The notes below the pieces were generated by a model. The model made no database searches. It worked only from the letters and a program-made list of their open reading frames with translations, and was not told where the DNA came from. Position numbers and translations under genes: made by a program. A DNA stretch of 40,881 nucleotides from Candidatus Kaiserbacteria bacterium RIFCSPLOWO2_01_FULL_50_24 (GTDB lineage: Bacteria > Patescibacteriota > Minisyncoccia > Phycocordibacterales > UBA2100), in the NCBI GenBank assembly GCA_001783335.1, contig MFLU01000004.1, forward strand, positions 1 through 40,881, in the 5' to 3' direction. This document shows positions 8,086 through 40,881 of the stretch, piece after piece; position 1 is the stretch's first letter; each line of letters begins with the position of its first letter.

Positions 8086-10308
8086 ATGAGCAGAAAAGAA
8101 CGCGAGAAAGAAAAAAGACGCAGACATGAGCGTGACGAGCGGGAGGAAAAAATTTCTATAAGCTCCAGTGCTATGCGAGGCGCCGCCGCCATACTACTTT
8201 TTGCCGTTGCGGGATTTTTAACGCTTGCGGCGATCGGAGCCGCAGGCGTCGTTGGAGCGAAAACATATTCCCTGCTCGCACGCGTATTCGGCATCGGATA
8301 TGCGCTTCTCCCCCTTTCGCTGTTTCTTCTCGCCTTTATTACCATCCGTTCTTTTGAAAAACACCTCGGGGTGGTGCAGATAGGGAGTATGATAGTGTTT
8401 CTCCTTTCCACACTCGGCATCGTCGCCACGATAGTGCCGAGCCGCGGAGGACTTTTAGGACATCTTATTTCCGACCCACTCGTTGCCGCCGTAGACACCA
8501 TTGCCACGCTCGTGTTCCTCATCGCATTCACGATTGTATCGCTCATCATTGCGTTTGACATTCACCTTACCGCCGTCGTCGCGGCAAGAGAGCGACTGCG
8601 AAACGTCAAGAAAGACGACGAGAATTCTATGGAGAACGTCCCTATTCTGACGCTCCCTTCAGACGAATCCGAAGGCGCGGAATCTGAAGGCGTCGCAGAA
8701 GAAGCCCTAAAGGGTGCACGAGGCGCACCACCGAAAGAGCAGGAAAGAACACCCGTGATGCGTTCGTTTGATAATCAGGACTACGCGCGCGGTTTCCCAA
8801 TTCTCGCCGCAACCGGTGGCTCGTACACGCCGCCCCCCCTTTCACTCCTCGGAAAAAACAAAGGAAAGCCGGAAGTGGGCGATGTGAAAGCGAACATGAA
8901 CATTATTAAGCGCACGCTCCAAAACTTTGGCATACAAGTGGAGATGGACGAGGCATCCATCGGTCCAACCGTAACTCGCTATGCGATGAAGCCCGCTGAA
9001 GGCGTGCGGCTTGCAAAAATCGTTACGCTCCAGTCAAATCTTGAACTCGCCCTTGCCGCCTCCCCCGTGCGCATTGAGGCACCTATACCCGGCAAGTCGC
9101 TCGTCGGCATTGAGGTTCCGAACATTTCCAGGACGACCCTCGGCCTCGCGCCAATGCTTGCCGACCCGGCGTTTTCTGAAAGCTCTAATCCTCTGATGAT
9201 TGCGCTCGGCAGAAGCATCACGGGGCAACCGCACTTTTCAGATCTCGCCCGCATGCCGCATCTTTTGGTAGCCGGCGCAACTGGCGCCGGAAAATCGGTG
9301 GCCATACACAACTTTATTGTCTCCCTCCTCTACCGATCGTCTCCGGAGCGTCTGCGATTCATCATGGTGGATCCGAAGCGCGTGGAGCTCACCATGTACA
9401 ACTCAATCCCCCATCTTCTGACGCCGGTTATCACAGACGCCAAAAAAACAATACTCGCGATAAAGTGGCTCGCGAAAGAAATGGAACGGCGATACAACAT
9501 TCTGGAAGCTGAGGCTGTGCGCGACATCGGTTCATACCACGAGAATGTTGTAGCCCCCGCGCTTGAACGAGGTGAGGATGATGACACACAGCCGCCCGAA
9601 GCGATGCCGTACATCGTCGTCATTATTGATGAACTCGCCGACATCATGTCTGCGTATCCGCGCGAGCTTGAGGCCGGCATCGTGCGGCTCGCGCAAATGA
9701 GCCGCGCAGTCGGCATCCACCTTATTCTTTCTACCCAGCGCCCGTCAGTCAAGGTTATCACCGGTCTCATCAAAGCGAATATTCCGGCGCGCTCCGCGTT
9801 TCAGGTTGCCTCGCAAATTGATTCGCGTACGATTTTAGACATGGGCGGCGCGGAAAAACTTCTCGGCGCGGGCGACCTCCTCTTTCTCTCCGGTGAGATG
9901 TCAAAACCAATGCGCATGCAAGCCCCGTTTATATCGGAAAACGAAGTTAAGCGCGTTGTCGCGCACATTGCCCGCACTAACAAAGATGCGCCGGGGGTGG
10001 GATTTGAATTCTCCGCCCCACTCGCGAGTGACTCGCAAAGCGACTTTGCATTCAACGAAAACGACGACGAAGACGAGCTGTATGGTGCGGCAAAACAAGC
10101 AGTAGTAGAAGCGGGAAAAGCCTCCACTTCGTACCTCCAGCGGAAACTCCGCATTGGCTACGCGCGCGCCGCGCGCCTCATGGACATCCTCGAAGAGCGC
10201 GGCGTCATCGGGCCATCCGACGGCGCGAAGCCCCGTGAAATAATCGGAGCGGGAAACGCAGATGAACTTGCACGAGAGCCGGAAGAAACCGAGGAAGAGC
10301 GCGTTTAG
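8086..10308 (+). CDS. ftsK: DNA translocase FtsK/SpoIIIE
   Basis: 740 aa; N-terminal TM helices; Walker A GATGAGKS; IIDELADIMSAY; C-terminal winged helix (gamma-like). Confidence 0.95.
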   Translation: MSRKEREKEKRRRHERDEREEKISISSSAMRGAAAILLFAVAGFLTLAAIGAAGVVGAKTYSLLARVFGIGYALLPLSLFLLAFITIRSFEKHLGVVQIGSMIVFLLSTLGIVATIVPSRGGLLGHLISDPLVAAVDTIATLVFLIAFTIVSLIIAFDIHLTAVVAARERLRNVKKDDENSMENVPILTLPSDESEGAESEGVAEEALKGARGAPPKEQERTPVMRSFDNQDYARGFPILAATGGSYTPPPLSLLGKNKGKPEVGDVKANMNIIKRTLQNFGIQVEMDEASIGPTVTRYAMKPAEGVRLAKIVTLQSNLELALAASPVRIEAPIPGKSLVGIEVPNISRTTLGLAPMLADPAFSESSNPLMIALGRSITGQPHFSDLARMPHLLVAGATGAGKSVAIHNFIVSLLYRSSPERLRFIMVDPKRVELTMYNSIPHLLTPVITDAKKTILAIKWLAKEMERRYNILEAEAVRDIGSYHENVVAPALERGEDDDTQPPEAMPYIVVIIDELADIMSAYPRELEAGIVRLAQMSRAVGIHLILSTQRPSVKVITGLIKANIPARSAFQVASQIDSRTILDMGGAEKLLGAGDLLFLSGEMSKPMRMQAPFISENEVKRVVAHIARTNKDAPGVGFEFSAPLASDSQSDFAFNENDDEDELYGAAKQAVVEAGKASTSYLQRKLRIGYARAARLMDILEERGVIGPSDGAKPREIIGAGNADELAREPEETEEERV

Positions 10309-10343
10309 AAATTGTTATGAGAGAAACGAATTTTAAGTTCTTG

Positions 10344-10399
10344 ACCCCAGTGAAATGCCGCTTCGCGGCTCCTCGCCTTCGGCGAGGATTTCACGGGGT
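10344..10399. repeat. Three-way-junction foldback element, copy 1 (inverted orientation)
   Basis: ACCCCaGTGAAAT-[GCCGC ttc GCGGC]-t-[CCTCGCC ttc GGCGAGG]-ATTTCACGGGGT. Confidence 0.75.
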
Positions 10400-10402
10400 G
10401 TA

Positions 10403-10437
10403 AGATTTTCTAATTCCTTTTAGTCATAAGAAAATCT
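10403..10437 (+). promoter_or_regulatory. AGATTTTCT...AGAAAATCT hairpin immediately upstream of ATG 10441
   Basis: Same arrangement as upstream of ssb, nusG and rplK. Confidence 0.5.
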
Positions 10438-10440
10438 AAC

Positions 10441-10803
10441 ATGCTCCCCTACCACAGCCACCTCTCCACCATCATACTTATCGCATTCTTCGTGCTTGTC
10501 CTCGGGTATGCGTATTTTGAAGCACGGGGAGTCCTCTATGGTCCGCGCATAATACTCCAGCCGGAAACACAACTTATGCACGACCCGTTTGTTACCGTAC
10601 GCGGAAAGGCGGAACGCATTACCGAACTGCGTATGAACGGAAGTCCGGTAGCCGTAACTGAAGACGGAGCATTTGAAGAACCGTATCTCCTCGCGCCCGG
10701 CTACAACAGAATTGTATTTGAGGCATACGACCAATACAAAAATCGGAGCGTTGAGGAAATAGAGATTATCTACGAGCCGCTTCTTATAACGCAGACCGAA
10801 TAA
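10441..10803 (+). CDS. Hypothetical membrane-anchored beta-sandwich-like protein
   Basis: 120 aa; N-terminal TM plus Ig-like beta region; between ftsK and recA. Confidence 0.75.
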   Translation: MLPYHSHLSTIILIAFFVLVLGYAYFEARGVLYGPRIILQPETQLMHDPFVTVRGKAERITELRMNGSPVAVTEDGAFEEPYLLAPGYNRIVFEAYDQYKNRSVEEIEIIYEPLLITQTE

Positions 10804-14348: not shown

Positions 14349-14811
14349 GAATATCATCCGGATTTATGTCCTCCTGCGGGTACTCAATGCCACTCGCGTT
14401 CGCCGGCGCCTCCACGGCCTCGGTGCCACGCGTTTTTGCACCCGCGTCGCCGCGGTTACTAAAACCACCACCCCCTCCTTCTCTTGGTCCGCCGGGCCCA
14501 AACTGCACCCGCTCGGCAACAATTTCCGTACGATACTTTTTCTCGCCGTCTTTTTCCCAGCTTCTTGTCTGGATGCGCCCCTCGACAAATGCGGTACGCC
14601 CCTTTTTCAAATACTGCGCAACAACATCTGCCTGTCTGCCAAACACCACAATATTGTGAAAATCCGCCTGTTCCTGTTTTTTGCCTTCACGATCGCGAAA
14701 CACACGGTTGGTTGCAATGGAAAATGTCGCGAGGTTCATACCGGACGGAAGCGCACGCAACTCCGGGTCGCGCGTCAGGTTGCCAAAAATGAACACTTTG
14801 TTGAGATACAT
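14341..14811 (-). CDS. ssb: Single-stranded DNA-binding protein
   Basis: MYLNKVFIFGNLTRDPELRALPSG...; acidic tail DDIPF. Start placed at MYLNK; the longer ORF reads through the upstream repeat (MLNSLRSLTKSN). Confidence 0.95.
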   Translation of the reverse strand: MYLNKVFIFGNLTRDPELRALPSGMNLATFSIATNRVFRDREGKKQEQADFHNIVVFGRQADVVAQYLKKGRTAFVEGRIQTRSWEKDGEKKYRTEIVAERVQFGPGGPREGGGGGFSNRGDAGAKTRGTEAVEAPANASGIEYPQEDINPDDIPF

Positions 14812-14814
14812 GTT

Positions 14815-14908
14815 AGATTTGGTTAACGAACGTAGTGAGTTTAGCAAATCTTACACCCCGTGAAATCGCCGCGAAGCGGCGAGCGCCGAAGGCGCATTTC
14901 ACTGGGGT
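14815..14908 (-). promoter_or_regulatory. Leader module copy 2: AGATTT hairpin plus three-way-junction foldback upstream of ssb
   Basis: AGATTTGGTTAACG...TTTAGCAAATCT (14815-14851), then ACCCCGTGAAAT-CGCCGCgaaGCGGCG-a-GCGCCgaaGGCGC-ATTTCACTGGGGT (14855-14908). Confidence 0.65.
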
Positions 14909-14977
14909 TAAGTAAAACATAGTTGCTTCGCTCCTTAATTTTCTACTAGCGTATAGTGTTTGATTCTAAAAAGCAAC

Positions 14978-15583: not shown

Positions 15584-15627
15584 CACATACGATAACTCCA
15601 TCCTATAGGATGGAGTTATCGTATGTG
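15584..15627. repeat. 44-bp perfect palindrome
   Basis: CACATACGATAACTCCATCCTATAGGATGGAGTTATCGTATGTG, no loop. Confidence 0.9.
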
Positions 15628-32616: not shown

Positions 32617-32619
32617 CAA

Positions 32620-32689
32620 GCCCCCACACCTATTATAGCGAGGACGCTTCGTGTCGCACTTCGTGCATCGCCATAATAGGTGTGGGGGC
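32620..32689. repeat. Foldback GCCCCCACACCTATTAT...ATAATAGGTGTGGGGGC
   Basis: 17-bp perfect arms. Confidence 0.85.
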
Positions 32690-33120: not shown

Positions 33121-33125
33121 GTCTT

Positions 33126-33162
33126 AGATTTAATTACTGAGCGAAGCGAGGTTAGTAAATCT
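33126..33162 (-). promoter_or_regulatory. AGATTT...AAATCT hairpin upstream of rplK
   Basis: AGATTTAATTACT-gagcgaagcgag-GTTAGTAAATCT, 5 nt from the start codon. Confidence 0.5.
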
Positions 33163-33167
33163 TAGAT

Positions 33168-33264
33168 CCAGCACCTTTTGTGCTTCTTATGCTGTGTGAA
33201 ATCGGATAATACTTCAATTTCATACTTGAGGCAATGTGATTTGTCGGGTGAGAAAAGGTGCTGG
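33168..33264. repeat. Foldback CCAGCACCTTTT...AAAAGGTGCTGG
   Basis: 12-bp perfect arms. Confidence 0.7.
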
Positions 33265-33303
33265 GTAGTGAAAAATATACTCACTTCGTTCGTTATTTTT
33301 CTA

Positions 33304-33849
33304 CTACACGCGTTGTACCTGATCCGCCTCCAACTCCACCGGAGTCTCGCGACCAAACATCGGAACCAATACCTTAACTTTTCCGCGGTCTTCGTCAACT
33401 TCGCCAACCTTTCCTTCCAAATCCTTGAACGGACCGTCAATTATTGTGACCGCGTCGTCCACAGCAAGGTCAATCGCGTGGCGCACCACATCTCCGGAAA
33501 CACGTTGTAGAATTTTATCCACCTCCCCTTGTTCAAGCGGAACCGCCTGATTCGCTGTGCCGACGAAGCCCGTAACCTGTGGCGTATTTCGAACGACGCT
33601 CCATGCATCGTCGGTCGCTATCATTTCCACCAAGACGTAGCCGGGAAATGTTTTCTCGCGCGCTTCTGTCTTGCGGCCACCTTTTATTTTTATTTTCTTT
33701 TCCGTCGGCACAACCACATTGAATATTTTGTCTTGCACACCAAACGACTCCACGCGCTGGCGCAGGTTTCGCGCAACGGCATCCTCATAGCCGGAGTATG
33801 TGTGTATTGCGTACCACTGACGCTCGGAGCCGTATGTTTGTTTTGCCAT
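33304..33849 (-). CDS. nusG: Transcription termination/antitermination protein NusG
   Basis: MAKQTYGSERQWYAIHTYSGYEDAVARNLRQRVES...PGYVLVEM...; start at MAKQ; the longer ORF reads through the upstream repeat. Confidence 0.96.
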   Translation of the reverse strand: MAKQTYGSERQWYAIHTYSGYEDAVARNLRQRVESFGVQDKIFNVVVPTEKKIKIKGGRKTEAREKTFPGYVLVEMIATDDAWSVVRNTPQVTGFVGTANQAVPLEQGEVDKILQRVSGDVVRHAIDLAVDDAVTIIDGPFKDLEGKVGEVDEDRGKVKVLVPMFGRETPVELEADQVQRV

Positions 33850-33852
33850 CTT

Positions 33853-33946
33853 AGATTTGATTAACGAACGTAGTGAGTTTAGCAAATCTTAGACCCCGTG
33901 AAATCGCCGCGAAGCGGCGAGCGCCAAAGGCGCATTTCACTGAAGT
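33853..33946 (-). promoter_or_regulatory. Leader module copy 3 upstream of nusG
   Basis: Near-identical to 14815-14908 (only a few substitutions). Confidence 0.65.
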
Positions 33947-33998
33947 TAAGTGCGACTAATTCACTTTGTTCATGCGTTTTTACTAAAAAGCTCTTACA

Positions 33999-34316
33999 TT
34001 ATTCTTCCGGAACGATTTGAAGCGTTGGGCCCCCCTCTATCGTCACCTCTCCACTCACCGGATCCGTTATGGTTATCTCCGGACCTGGAAGCGCCCCCGG
34101 CAACAACTGCACGTCGGTCTGTGGCGGCAAACTTTCGGGCAGTATGCCGAGCGCCGTTTCAAGACCAGAAGTAAACAAGAAATCAAAGAGTCCAAGATAT
34201 GCCGCTACAAAAAGAGAAATGGCGATTACGAGCGTCGTGTATATAACGGTCTGCATTTGCGTCGGCCATGCCACGTGTCGTAACTCTCCGCGTGTGTCTT
34301 TGATGTACTGCCACAT
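33999..34316 (-). CDS. secE: Preprotein translocase subunit SecE (C-terminal extension)
   Basis: 105 aa; YIKDTRGELRHVAWPTQMQTVIYTTLVIAISLFVAAYLGLFDFLF; upstream of nusG. Confidence 0.9.
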   Translation of the reverse strand: MWQYIKDTRGELRHVAWPTQMQTVIYTTLVIAISLFVAAYLGLFDFLFTSGLETALGILPESLPPQTDVQLLPGALPGPEITITDPVSGEVTIEGGPTLQIVPEE

Positions 34317-34449: not shown

Positions 34450-34720
34450 CGCTCGCTTGGCAGTGCTTCTCTGGAACCATGGTCCGCGCCCCCTCTAGGG
34501 CGCGGCCATTGCCGCTCGGCAAATTTTGTCGCTTCGCGCCAACCATGCCCCCACACCTATTCCACATAGTGATATCGCCACATATAAAAATGGCGATACG
34601 AGAGGCGCTACCAGAAACCATAAATAGATGTTTGGTGAAATAGGTGTGAGCTCGCAAAGCGAGCGGGGGCATGCAAATTTGCCTCCGCGAGCTTCCAGAG
34701 AGGCACTGCCTACGCTCGCT
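34450..34720. repeat. Composite nested inverted-repeat element
   Basis: Outer GGCAGTGCtTCTCTGGAA / TTCCAGAGAGGCACTGCC; inner CATGCCCCCACACCTATT / AATAGGTGTG[agctcgcaaagcgagc]GGGGGCATG; TATCGCCAcatataaaaaTGGCGATA. Confidence 0.7.
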
Positions 34721-38874: not shown

Positions 38875-38904
38875 GCGGACAGTATACCCCCACACCTATT
38901 CCTC

Positions 38905-39321
38905 ATGGAGTCCACGTCATCGCAAAAGATGTCCACGCTGACAGCGCTCCCACAGAGAAAGAATTGGGTCGAACCCTTGCGGAGTTTCGTTTTGTCCTTG
39001 AAAGAAGCGGAAAAAGTGGCGCAAACAAAAAATTACGCCGAATGGCGCAACTTTTTCCGTTCTCTCGGCTCTAACCCTGAAATCAAGGACAAAACGCTTT
39101 CAATAAATTGGGGCGAACTCTGGGATTTTACGGCGAAAACAAAAGCGGATTTTTGCCTGCGGAGCGCGGCGTACTCGCCGCGCGGAGCAGTCAATTTCAA
39201 CGAAGTTACATTTGGTGCCCTTTGTTTGAAAATGTGCGAACCTTTTTTGAGCGAAACTGACTGCCGCGCTTCGCGCGGCAGAGAACCCAACCGCTCGGGT
39301 GCGGCGGAATTCCCCCCTTGA
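38905..39321 (+). pseudogene. Probable C-terminal remnant of a serine site-specific recombinase
   Basis: RKNWVEPLRSFVLSLKEAEKVAQTKNYAEWRNFFRSLGSNPEIKDKTLSINWGELWDF resembles the C-termini of large serine recombinases common in CPR genomes; no catalytic domain upstream. Confidence 0.5.
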
Positions 39322-39339: not shown

Positions 39340-39372
39340 CCTCGCGGGAGGCCAAAATTTTTTCGCCGCCAA
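39340..39372. repeat. Inverted repeat, left copy
   Basis: CCTCGCGGGAGGCCAAAATTTTTTCGCCGCCAA; exact reverse complement at 40849-40881. Confidence 0.95.
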
Positions 39373-40551
39373 CTATTTCTTTTGAAACTGCTGGCTGATA
39401 ACAACTCCGTTCCGCTCCAAGTTTAACATAACTTCTTTTCTCATCTCATCATCTAATGCTTCGGGTGGAAATACGCCAGCAGTTTTTATTTTGGGAATTA
39501 CTTTTGAAAATGAATACGCGGCCGTACCCGCAGGATAAGAAATATATGTCGCACCCGGAAATGTTTTTGTAATTTCTTTCAAATCGGGAAAGGTCGCGCT
39601 CATTTTAATTCTTATATCTTGCTTTTGCTCTTTGCCAATCACTTCAACCGACAATGCAAAAATCGCATTTTCGATAACTCCTTCATCTATCATTCGTTTC
39701 ATTTTTTGTGGCGAAGGAACTTTCGGCGCAATCTTTTTGAAAAACTCGAGCGGTATTATCTTTCCCCCGCTGAATTCCATCGGCTCTTTACTGAACAAAC
39801 CCAAACGCGATAGTGCCTTTGAAAATTCTATGTCAGAACCGGATGATTTGAAATCCACAATTTTGGTTTTGATAAACAATGGCACTGTAGCAACCTCATC
39901 GCCATAAATGCTGAAAGCGTGTCGCTTTCCAAACGGTTCCGGAAATTCGTATTCCTCGGAATCTCCAAATGGTTTAGTAAGTAAAAACATACCATTGCGA
40001 AACACTAATGGCGGAGCAGTTAAGTCATCAAGCGTAGTTTCGGCAGACCAAGCAAAAACAAATTCACTTGCTTTTTGCTCCTCAACACATCGAAAATGAA
40101 TTTCCTCTACTTCGCTTAATTTATCCGCCGCCTCTCTTGCAAGAAGATTGGTTATACCGGGAGCAACCCCCGTGTTGATTAAGGCCGTCAAACCAGCTTC
40201 TCTGAACCTTCCAGTAAATTTTAATTGCTCGGCTGTTTTTAGATCAGCAAGCTCCGAAGCCAAATCTTGATAATGTGCTCCAACGCGCAATGCCACTTCC
40301 AAGATATTTTCGTTAAAGCGAGGCAAACTTGCATTGATAATAAGATCTACGCCGCGTGCCTTATTAACAATTTCGTCTATGTTCAAAGCGTTAAGCTCAA
40401 CAAGTTTTATCTTATCGTTCTCGTTAACAAATTCTTTTGCGCGATTTATGTTGTTTGAGGCACAGATAACTTCAGCAACCTCGTCGTCCTTGTTCAAATA
40501 TTTCGAGATGACCGAACCAACTGCCCCAGCACCGATAAGTAAAATTTTCAT
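39373..40551 (-). CDS. Saccharopine dehydrogenase/homospermidine synthase-like NAD(P)-binding protein
   Basis: 392 aa; MKILLIGAGAVGSVISKYL... Rossmann motif; INTGVAPGITNLLAREAADKL. Confidence 0.88.
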   Translation of the reverse strand: MKILLIGAGAVGSVISKYLNKDDEVAEVICASNNINRAKEFVNENDKIKLVELNALNIDEIVNKARGVDLIINASLPRFNENILEVALRVGAHYQDLASELADLKTAEQLKFTGRFREAGLTALINTGVAPGITNLLAREAADKLSEVEEIHFRCVEEQKASEFVFAWSAETTLDDLTAPPLVFRNGMFLLTKPFGDSEEYEFPEPFGKRHAFSIYGDEVATVPLFIKTKIVDFKSSGSDIEFSKALSRLGLFSKEPMEFSGGKIIPLEFFKKIAPKVPSPQKMKRMIDEGVIENAIFALSVEVIGKEQKQDIRIKMSATFPDLKEITKTFPGATYISYPAGTAAYSFSKVIPKIKTAGVFPPEALDDEMRKEVMLNLERNGVVISQQFQKK

Positions 40552-40830: not shown

Positions 40831-40881
40831 ATGGGATTCGTAATTGGATTGGCGGCGAAAAAATTTTGGCCTCCCGCGAGG
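40831..40881 (+). CDS. Possible ORF start truncated by right edge (MGFVIGLAAKKFWPPAR...)
   Basis: ATG within palindrome CCCATATATGGG, preceded by TATAAT; reads into the inverted repeat. Confidence 0.3.
   Translation, partial: MGFVIGLAAKKFWPPAR
40849..40881. repeat. Inverted repeat, right copy
   Basis: TTGGCGGCGAAAAAATTTTGGCCTCCCGCGAGG; reaches the window end so may extend further. Confidence 0.95.

Follow-up and report, generated by a model that had tools for sequence, protein, structure and literature searches.

Hairpin cassettes anchored on start codons in a Kaiserbacteria-type genome and its relatives

The DNA described here (the window, 40,881 nt in all) is contig C4 of an 849 kb assembly in 22 contigs, from a Kaiserbacteria-type bacterium (Patescibacteria). 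Four of its genes, ssb, nusG, rplK and orf10441 (whose product has a weak Glucodextran_B-domain match), are each preceded by a copy of one cassette (Table 1). Read in the direction of the gene, this consists of a hairpin (H1), a GC-rich foldback core, a second hairpin (H3) and then the ATG. H1 and H3 are relatives in inverted orientation, and the ends of the cassette are inverted (TTTAG..CTAAA). Inside operons the cassette fills the whole gap from the upstream stop codon to the downstream ATG, and that stop codon is often supplied or abutted by H1. The TAG in the H1 of the orf10441 cassette (10306-10308) is the stop codon of ftsK, whose ORF ends at 10308, and the H1 of the rplK cassette abuts the nusG stop codon, TAG (33304-33306). 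Against Rfam 15 the sole match in the whole window is a tRNA, and eight cassette loci gave nothing relevant at E<=1. Downstream of a purA-like gene the window also holds a perfect spacerless palindrome of 44 nt (15584-15627), and at the contig end a perfect 33-nt inverted repeat (39340-39372 and 40849-40881) around a 392-aa ORF (39373-40551).

Table 1. Parts of the four cassettes in the window, with R1 denoting the covariance model of H3
Feature	Gene	Position	Strand	Remarks
H1	orf10441	10304-10343	+	Weak inverted R1 match 10305-10344; sequence, fold
Core, type A	orf10441	10344-10398	+	Three-way junction ACCCCAGTGAAAT..ATTTCACGGGG; MFE -34.0
H3	orf10441	10399-10440	+	Flush with ATG 10441; R1 62.9 bits
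H3	ssb	14812-14855	-	Flush with ATG 14811-14809; R1 66.1 bits
Core, type A	ssb	14855-14908	-	MFE -33.2
H1	ssb	14909-14948	-	TAGTAGAAAATTAAGGAGCGAAGCAACTATGTTTTACTTA; fold, comparison with H1 of other copies
H3	rplK	33123-33166	-	2 nt before ATG 33120-33118; R1 65.0 bits
Core, type C	rplK	33167-33264	-	CCAGCACCTTTT..AAAAGGTGCTGGA, arms also given as CCAGCACCTTTT..AAAAGGTGCTGG; long weakly structured loop
H1	rplK	33265-33306	-	Promoter-like TAGAAA-N18-TATATT
H3	nusG	33850-33893	-	Flush with ATG 33849-33847; R1 65.8 bits
Core, type A	nusG	33893-33946	-	MFE -27.4; outer stem slightly degenerate
H1-type hairpin	nusG	33947-33986	-	Beside secE end (secE stop 33999-34001)

Much of this layout had been glimpsed in a first-pass annotation of the sequence. 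The near-identical repeats of about 95 bp that it reported before ssb and nusG are there, as a direct repeat with 85% identity (14809-14942 and 33847-33980), and so is the inverted-orientation relative before position 10441 (10344-10440). Its AGATTT..AAATCT hairpin is present but was drawn too short: the AG-rich stem runs on past an A.A mismatch for 2-3 further pairs. In the fold of the window copies the A of the ATG takes part in the outermost pair, so the gap of 3-4 nt that had been described between hairpin and start codon belongs to the hairpin. The annotation credited rplK with the hairpin part, which holds, but a foldback stands there too, of a different kind, and H1, the third part of the cassette, upstream of the core, was missing from its account. 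It was right that the extended N-termini (MLNSLRSL..) of some reading frames are translations of the repeat; they come from reading through H3 from a TTG, and they show no conservation.

The window copies belong to a family that is dispersed over the genome. The type A core pattern GTGAAATN{10,40}ATTTCAC occurs in 19 places, its reversed control in none. The covariance model R1, built from 14 copies of the H3 hairpin with the ATG omitted, finds 36 matches at E<=1 and 30 at E<0.001. For 27 of these 30 best matches a gene start follows at 0-12 nt, with the ATG at 0-3 nt in 23 and at 6-12 nt in four, and the other three are inverted H1-type copies within arrays. R1 also gives weak inverted matches at H1 hairpins. 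The genes preceded by H3, named by sequence inspection, are dnaK, nusB, glmS, ssb, rplT, nusG, tuf, rplK, a PrgI-like gene, orf10441, groES, groEL, hup, rplW, rpmC, rpsS, rpsL, nrdB, rplV, a penicillin-binding-protein-like gene, rpsE, a SET-domain-like gene, pilC, map, rpoA and rplF, together with a 16-codon lysine-rich ORF; rpmE has one more copy. Ribosomal-protein genes make up about 10 of 31 cassette genes (p about 1e-6, with totals assumed at 48 ribosomal-protein genes in 900), and rpsE, rplV, rplF and rplW carry a cassette each inside ribosomal operons. The 16-codon basic ORF (MAKKKKAKKGGKKKRR, at G000:C21 ~8888, ahead of a secA-like gene) is possibly a real tiny gene.

The H3 stem is conserved as a structure. 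Pairing holds in 91.2% of cells over 79 distinct H3s, which come from many genomes, compared with at most 46% for control structures slid by 1-3 columns, and both sides change in 13 of 16 pairs, a level of covariation reached in 0 of 500 shuffles. Together with the pattern control and the R1 matches, these shuffles exclude a chance origin of the repeats. Some unpaired columns are invariant (A4, A15, A58, T19, C20, T53 and C54), and so are two mismatches, A.A and TC/TC, which become T.T and tandem G.A on the complementary strand. G.T pairs, with 8 instances in the 79 copies, are rare, and C.A pairs outnumber them at 27. The antisense strand of H3 has the more stable fold in 79/79 copies with RNA parameters and in 73/79 with DNA parameters, so the conserved form is not that expected of a stem optimised in mRNA; in H1 the bias is reversed, because H1 is the inverted relative. 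This strand bias suggests that the hairpins were selected, or arose, as DNA. A weak hairpin before the AUG could also be favoured in RNA.

Placement on start codons extends well beyond this genome. A DNA pattern for H3, again without the ATG, was run on 85,462 species genomes and matched 38 times. In 37 cases an ATG follows (CTAA+1 in 32, CTAA+3 in five), one of them opening an ORF of under 40 aa, below the cut-off of the script. The hosts of these 37 are Kaiserbacteria, members of the Parcubacteria group, Patescibacteria/Paceibacterota or unnamed bins, and the one match off a start codon, in a Roizmanbacterium, is probably due to chance. Across the order, R1 matches are found in 42 of 197 genomes. 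Outside the genus, 22 of 26 inspected matches lie at start codons, some with the ATG inside the stem, and the four exceptions are weak or partial; these copies again stand behind a foldback, which usually ends in GGG. Spacing can be kept while cores differ: CTAAGATG at rplJ (CTAAG before the ATG) recurs in four species and a 2-nt spacer at rplT in four genomes, in each case over different cores, which speaks against turnover alone. The cassette family is confirmed, is wider than first reported and is absent from Rfam, and its exact start-codon anchoring is a new feature. Short mobile repeats are normally kept off start codons or near gene ends, and to our knowledge no described element is placed this exactly on start codons. 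A search of the open-access literature found no report of this cassette.

Two observations around rplT are recorded here in their own right. In G008, G009 and G018 the rpmI-rplT gap contains a conserved, unannotated ORF of 22-26 codons (MSRVKPQYHKSxGFGYGAGEE..), and in G008 the H3 sits on the start codon of this ORF, not on that of rplT. The rplT genes of G045, G012 and G042 have an unrelated sequence in the same layout, a CCCTTCGACAAGCTCAGGG-type foldback and then an AT-rich hairpin, TAAAATT..AATTTTATG, with the start codon within its 3' arm.

The distribution of the cassette among related genomes is patchy. The cores are lineage-specific and exchangeable: types A and B are three-way junctions, type C cores are long foldbacks, and a further kind is a short CCCTTCGA..CAGGG repeat. 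Within one genus the number of copies ranges from 0 to 28, several nearly complete genomes having none at the R1 threshold. At nusG, only the genome described here has H3 among 30 genus genomes, and two others have a foldback alone, flush with the ATG. The cassette is found at rplT in about 4 of 28 genus genomes, at rplJ in 5 of 24 and at dnaK in 2 of 29. Identical 43-nt type A cores occupy unlinked loci in the genome, and an outer H3 at pilC, and another at rpmE, encloses a complete TTTAG-H1-core-H3-CTAAA unit. One close empty site, between grpE and dnaK in G008, was read by eye: it has AAATCT TGATTCACT ATG where the filled site has AAATCT, H1..H3 and ATG. The filled site is not a clean insertion, a 9-nt junction with the old stop codon having been replaced, and no target-site duplication is seen there; at rplV the tail is duplicated, apparently by slippage. 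Given the empty orthologous sites, lineage-specific cores and nested units, the block behaves like mobile DNA: as in a MITE, inverted repeats stand at both ends of a non-coding core, and the whole seems to move together. A longer, gene-carrying form of the cassette was not noticed, and for transposases we searched for the Y1_Tnp family. There are seven such genes in the genome, of which only one adjoins copies, on one side only, just upstream of the rpmE array, and in 25 genus genomes their number does not track that of the cassettes (12 genes and 0 copies in G015, 1 and 23 in G018, 0 and 14 in G013).

Turning to expression signals, 25 of the 52 cassettes carry TATAWT (at least 5/6) in the H1 sense arm, 7-9 nt upstream of the first nucleotide of the core. 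At the equivalent place on the antisense strand of H3 the box occurs in none of the 52. Most of the 25 have TAGWAA 16-18 nt upstream of the box, a weak match to the -35 consensus, and about half of the cassettes are without a good -10 box in H1. Among the 27 window genes that have no cassette, TANNNT stands 5-10 nt before the start in 16 (p=1e-11 against a frequency of 7.8% for ATGs overall), and just one shows an SD-like site. This suggests that these genes are leaderless or very short-leadered, and leaderless transcription seems, from such signals, to be the rule among the genes of the window. The lack of a Shine-Dalgarno sequence before cassette genes, which the first-pass annotation pointed out, is therefore real but not specific to them. 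A pattern for the 3' end of 16S rRNA was not found in this assembly. No open-access paper was found that joins CPR/Patescibacteria with leaderless transcription and Shine-Dalgarno use. A motif, AGGTGTGGGGG, is repeated directly before -10-like boxes or at apparent promoters of several genes (upstream of 24543 and 38868; 32618-32640, 34545-34567 and 38884-38906).

Several other roles were considered and rejected. The core is not followed by a T run, as a terminator would be; H3 contains no SD-like site that it could donate; and a promoter inside H3 that starts transcription at the ATG lacks a -10 in the right place, the invariant columns not being promoter-like. The ATCTAAC at the end of H3 recalls the R box of an integron attC, but the boxes face the wrong way.

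Among known systems, the Correia repeat enclosed elements (CREE/NEMIS) of Neisseria are small and non-coding, with inverted repeats around a core and many copies, and they can form a promoter at their end and be co-transcribed with adjacent genes (PMC2649163). The cassette resembles them in these traits, the last two being predictions in its case, and no sequence relation is claimed. It differs from CREE in that its ends are complete mismatched hairpins, its core is exchangeable and one end lies exactly on the start codons of core genes. GTAG-type REPs, BIMEs and REPINs are mismatched palindromes in alternating orientation, with arrays and a patchy distribution (PMC3733652, PMC3116915). Imperfect palindromes of the ssDNA type with conserved mismatches, alternating orientation, arrays and patchiness are found here too, but REPs are mostly near the 3' ends of genes (PMC3733652) and the cassettes are at 5' ends. 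A REP mobilised by a RAYT was rejected: no GTAG/CGTC foot defines the unit (the invariant columns of H3 are A.A, TC/TC and TAA, and while some H1 copies read GTAGAAA, others read TTTAGTA or GTAAG), and no Y1_Tnp gene of this genome has the repeats on both sides. The -10-adjacent leaderless starts of Deinococcus-Thermus (PMC12340547) are shared by other window genes, which have a -10-like box directly before the ATG and no SD, whereas cassette genes have no such box before the ATG and carry it in H1, upstream of the core. Ribosomal-protein leader RNAs, such as the L10 leader, are likewise structured elements just upstream of ribosomal-protein genes, but the same cassette also precedes unrelated genes. 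In most members of the genus rplJ has a leader that we take to resemble the L10 leader. This element gave no Rfam match at E<=1, and in G012 and G003 the cassette lies between it and the rplJ ATG. Overall, the cassette acts most like a promoter-bearing MITE of the CREE kind, and shares its mismatched palindromes with REPs.

The first-pass annotation had proposed either a mobile REP-like cassette or a cis-regulatory leader. The many copies, strictly close to start codons, refute neither, and a mixture of the two is supported: orthologous sites that lack the cassette, units nested within one another and cores nearly identical between unlinked loci argue for dispersal, and exact ATG anchoring and the promoter-like box in H1 argue for a leader that affects expression. 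Membership among REP/RAYT elements is unsupported. Our preferred reading, to which we give a probability of roughly 0.55, is a dispersed non-coding MITE/REP-like cassette that brings a gene a promoter and, right up against its start codon, a structured leader. Like a MITE, the whole cassette would spread by being copied to other sites. On landing at a gene start, H1 would provide the promoter (TAGWAA, 17-18 nt, TATAWT), transcription would start at the core, which would then form the 5'-terminal stem-loop of the mRNA, and H3 would present the AUG at its base, with a possible effect on translation. A gene with leaderless or short-leader relatives would in this way gain a promoter of its own, together with a leader that is structured and probably stabilising.

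It is unlikely, in our judgement, that the cassette is a purely selfish REP/MITE-like element whose ssDNA transposase has a target preference that happens to coincide with start codons, for instance melted leaderless starts, any effect on expression being incidental. The more stable antisense fold, the scarcity of G.T pairs, the reverse-complementary pattern of H1 and H3, the nested units, the patchy presence and the Y1_Tnp genes, with one of them just upstream of a cassette, would all suit such an element. However, a preference for three nucleotides (CAT, on the other strand) cannot yield 37/37 at true starts, Y1_Tnp counts do not follow copy number, and the bias to core, highly expressed genes and the restriction of the promoter-like box to H1 are left unexplained. 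We are more doubtful still of a vertically inherited cis-regulatory RNA leader, or a punctuation element cut out to give leaderless mRNAs, with a functional H3 and losses in many lineages. Exact anchoring over the whole order, recurrence at rplT, rplJ, rplK and dnaK in different species with different cores, blocks that run exactly from stop to start in operons and the single cassettes within ribosomal operons are consistent with it. It is at odds with the absence of the cassette from most genus members at any given gene and from several nearly complete genomes (at the model threshold), with a sense-strand fold that is the weaker and has few G-U pairs, and with the want of an Rfam family match. 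An upstream leader peptide, read from the core through H3 to the TAA of CTAA-N-ATG and coupled to translation of the gene, is very improbable: several type C cores contain an ORF that opens with ATG, spans 25-40 codons and ends within H3 (MKITMSETPQVRYSPDGGWAGLRFAKLASLTNQI* before an rplT is an example), but because H3 is 42, 44 or 45 nt long the stop falls in different, inconsistent frames, an in-frame TAA is present in type B cores, and the rplK and rpsE copies end early.

More tentatively than the portable promoter and leader that we favour, we suggest that these are mobile hairpin cassettes, order-wide, that recognise or require a start codon, either through start-targeted integration or because the hairpin substitutes for an initiation signal. 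In the former case the target may be, for example, melted DNA at leaderless starts; in the latter, the hairpin may serve a lineage that hardly uses Shine-Dalgarno sequences. The start codons that this repeat family occupies include those of genes for ribosomal proteins, chaperones and RNA polymerase, and its hosts form a large group of uncultured bacteria, the ultra-small Kaiserbacteria and their relatives. If the family is a portable promoter and leader, it would show a way in which expression of core operons is rewired in very small genomes, and would offer a ready handle on how transcription and translation start in bacteria which, to judge from this window, hardly use Shine-Dalgarno sequences.
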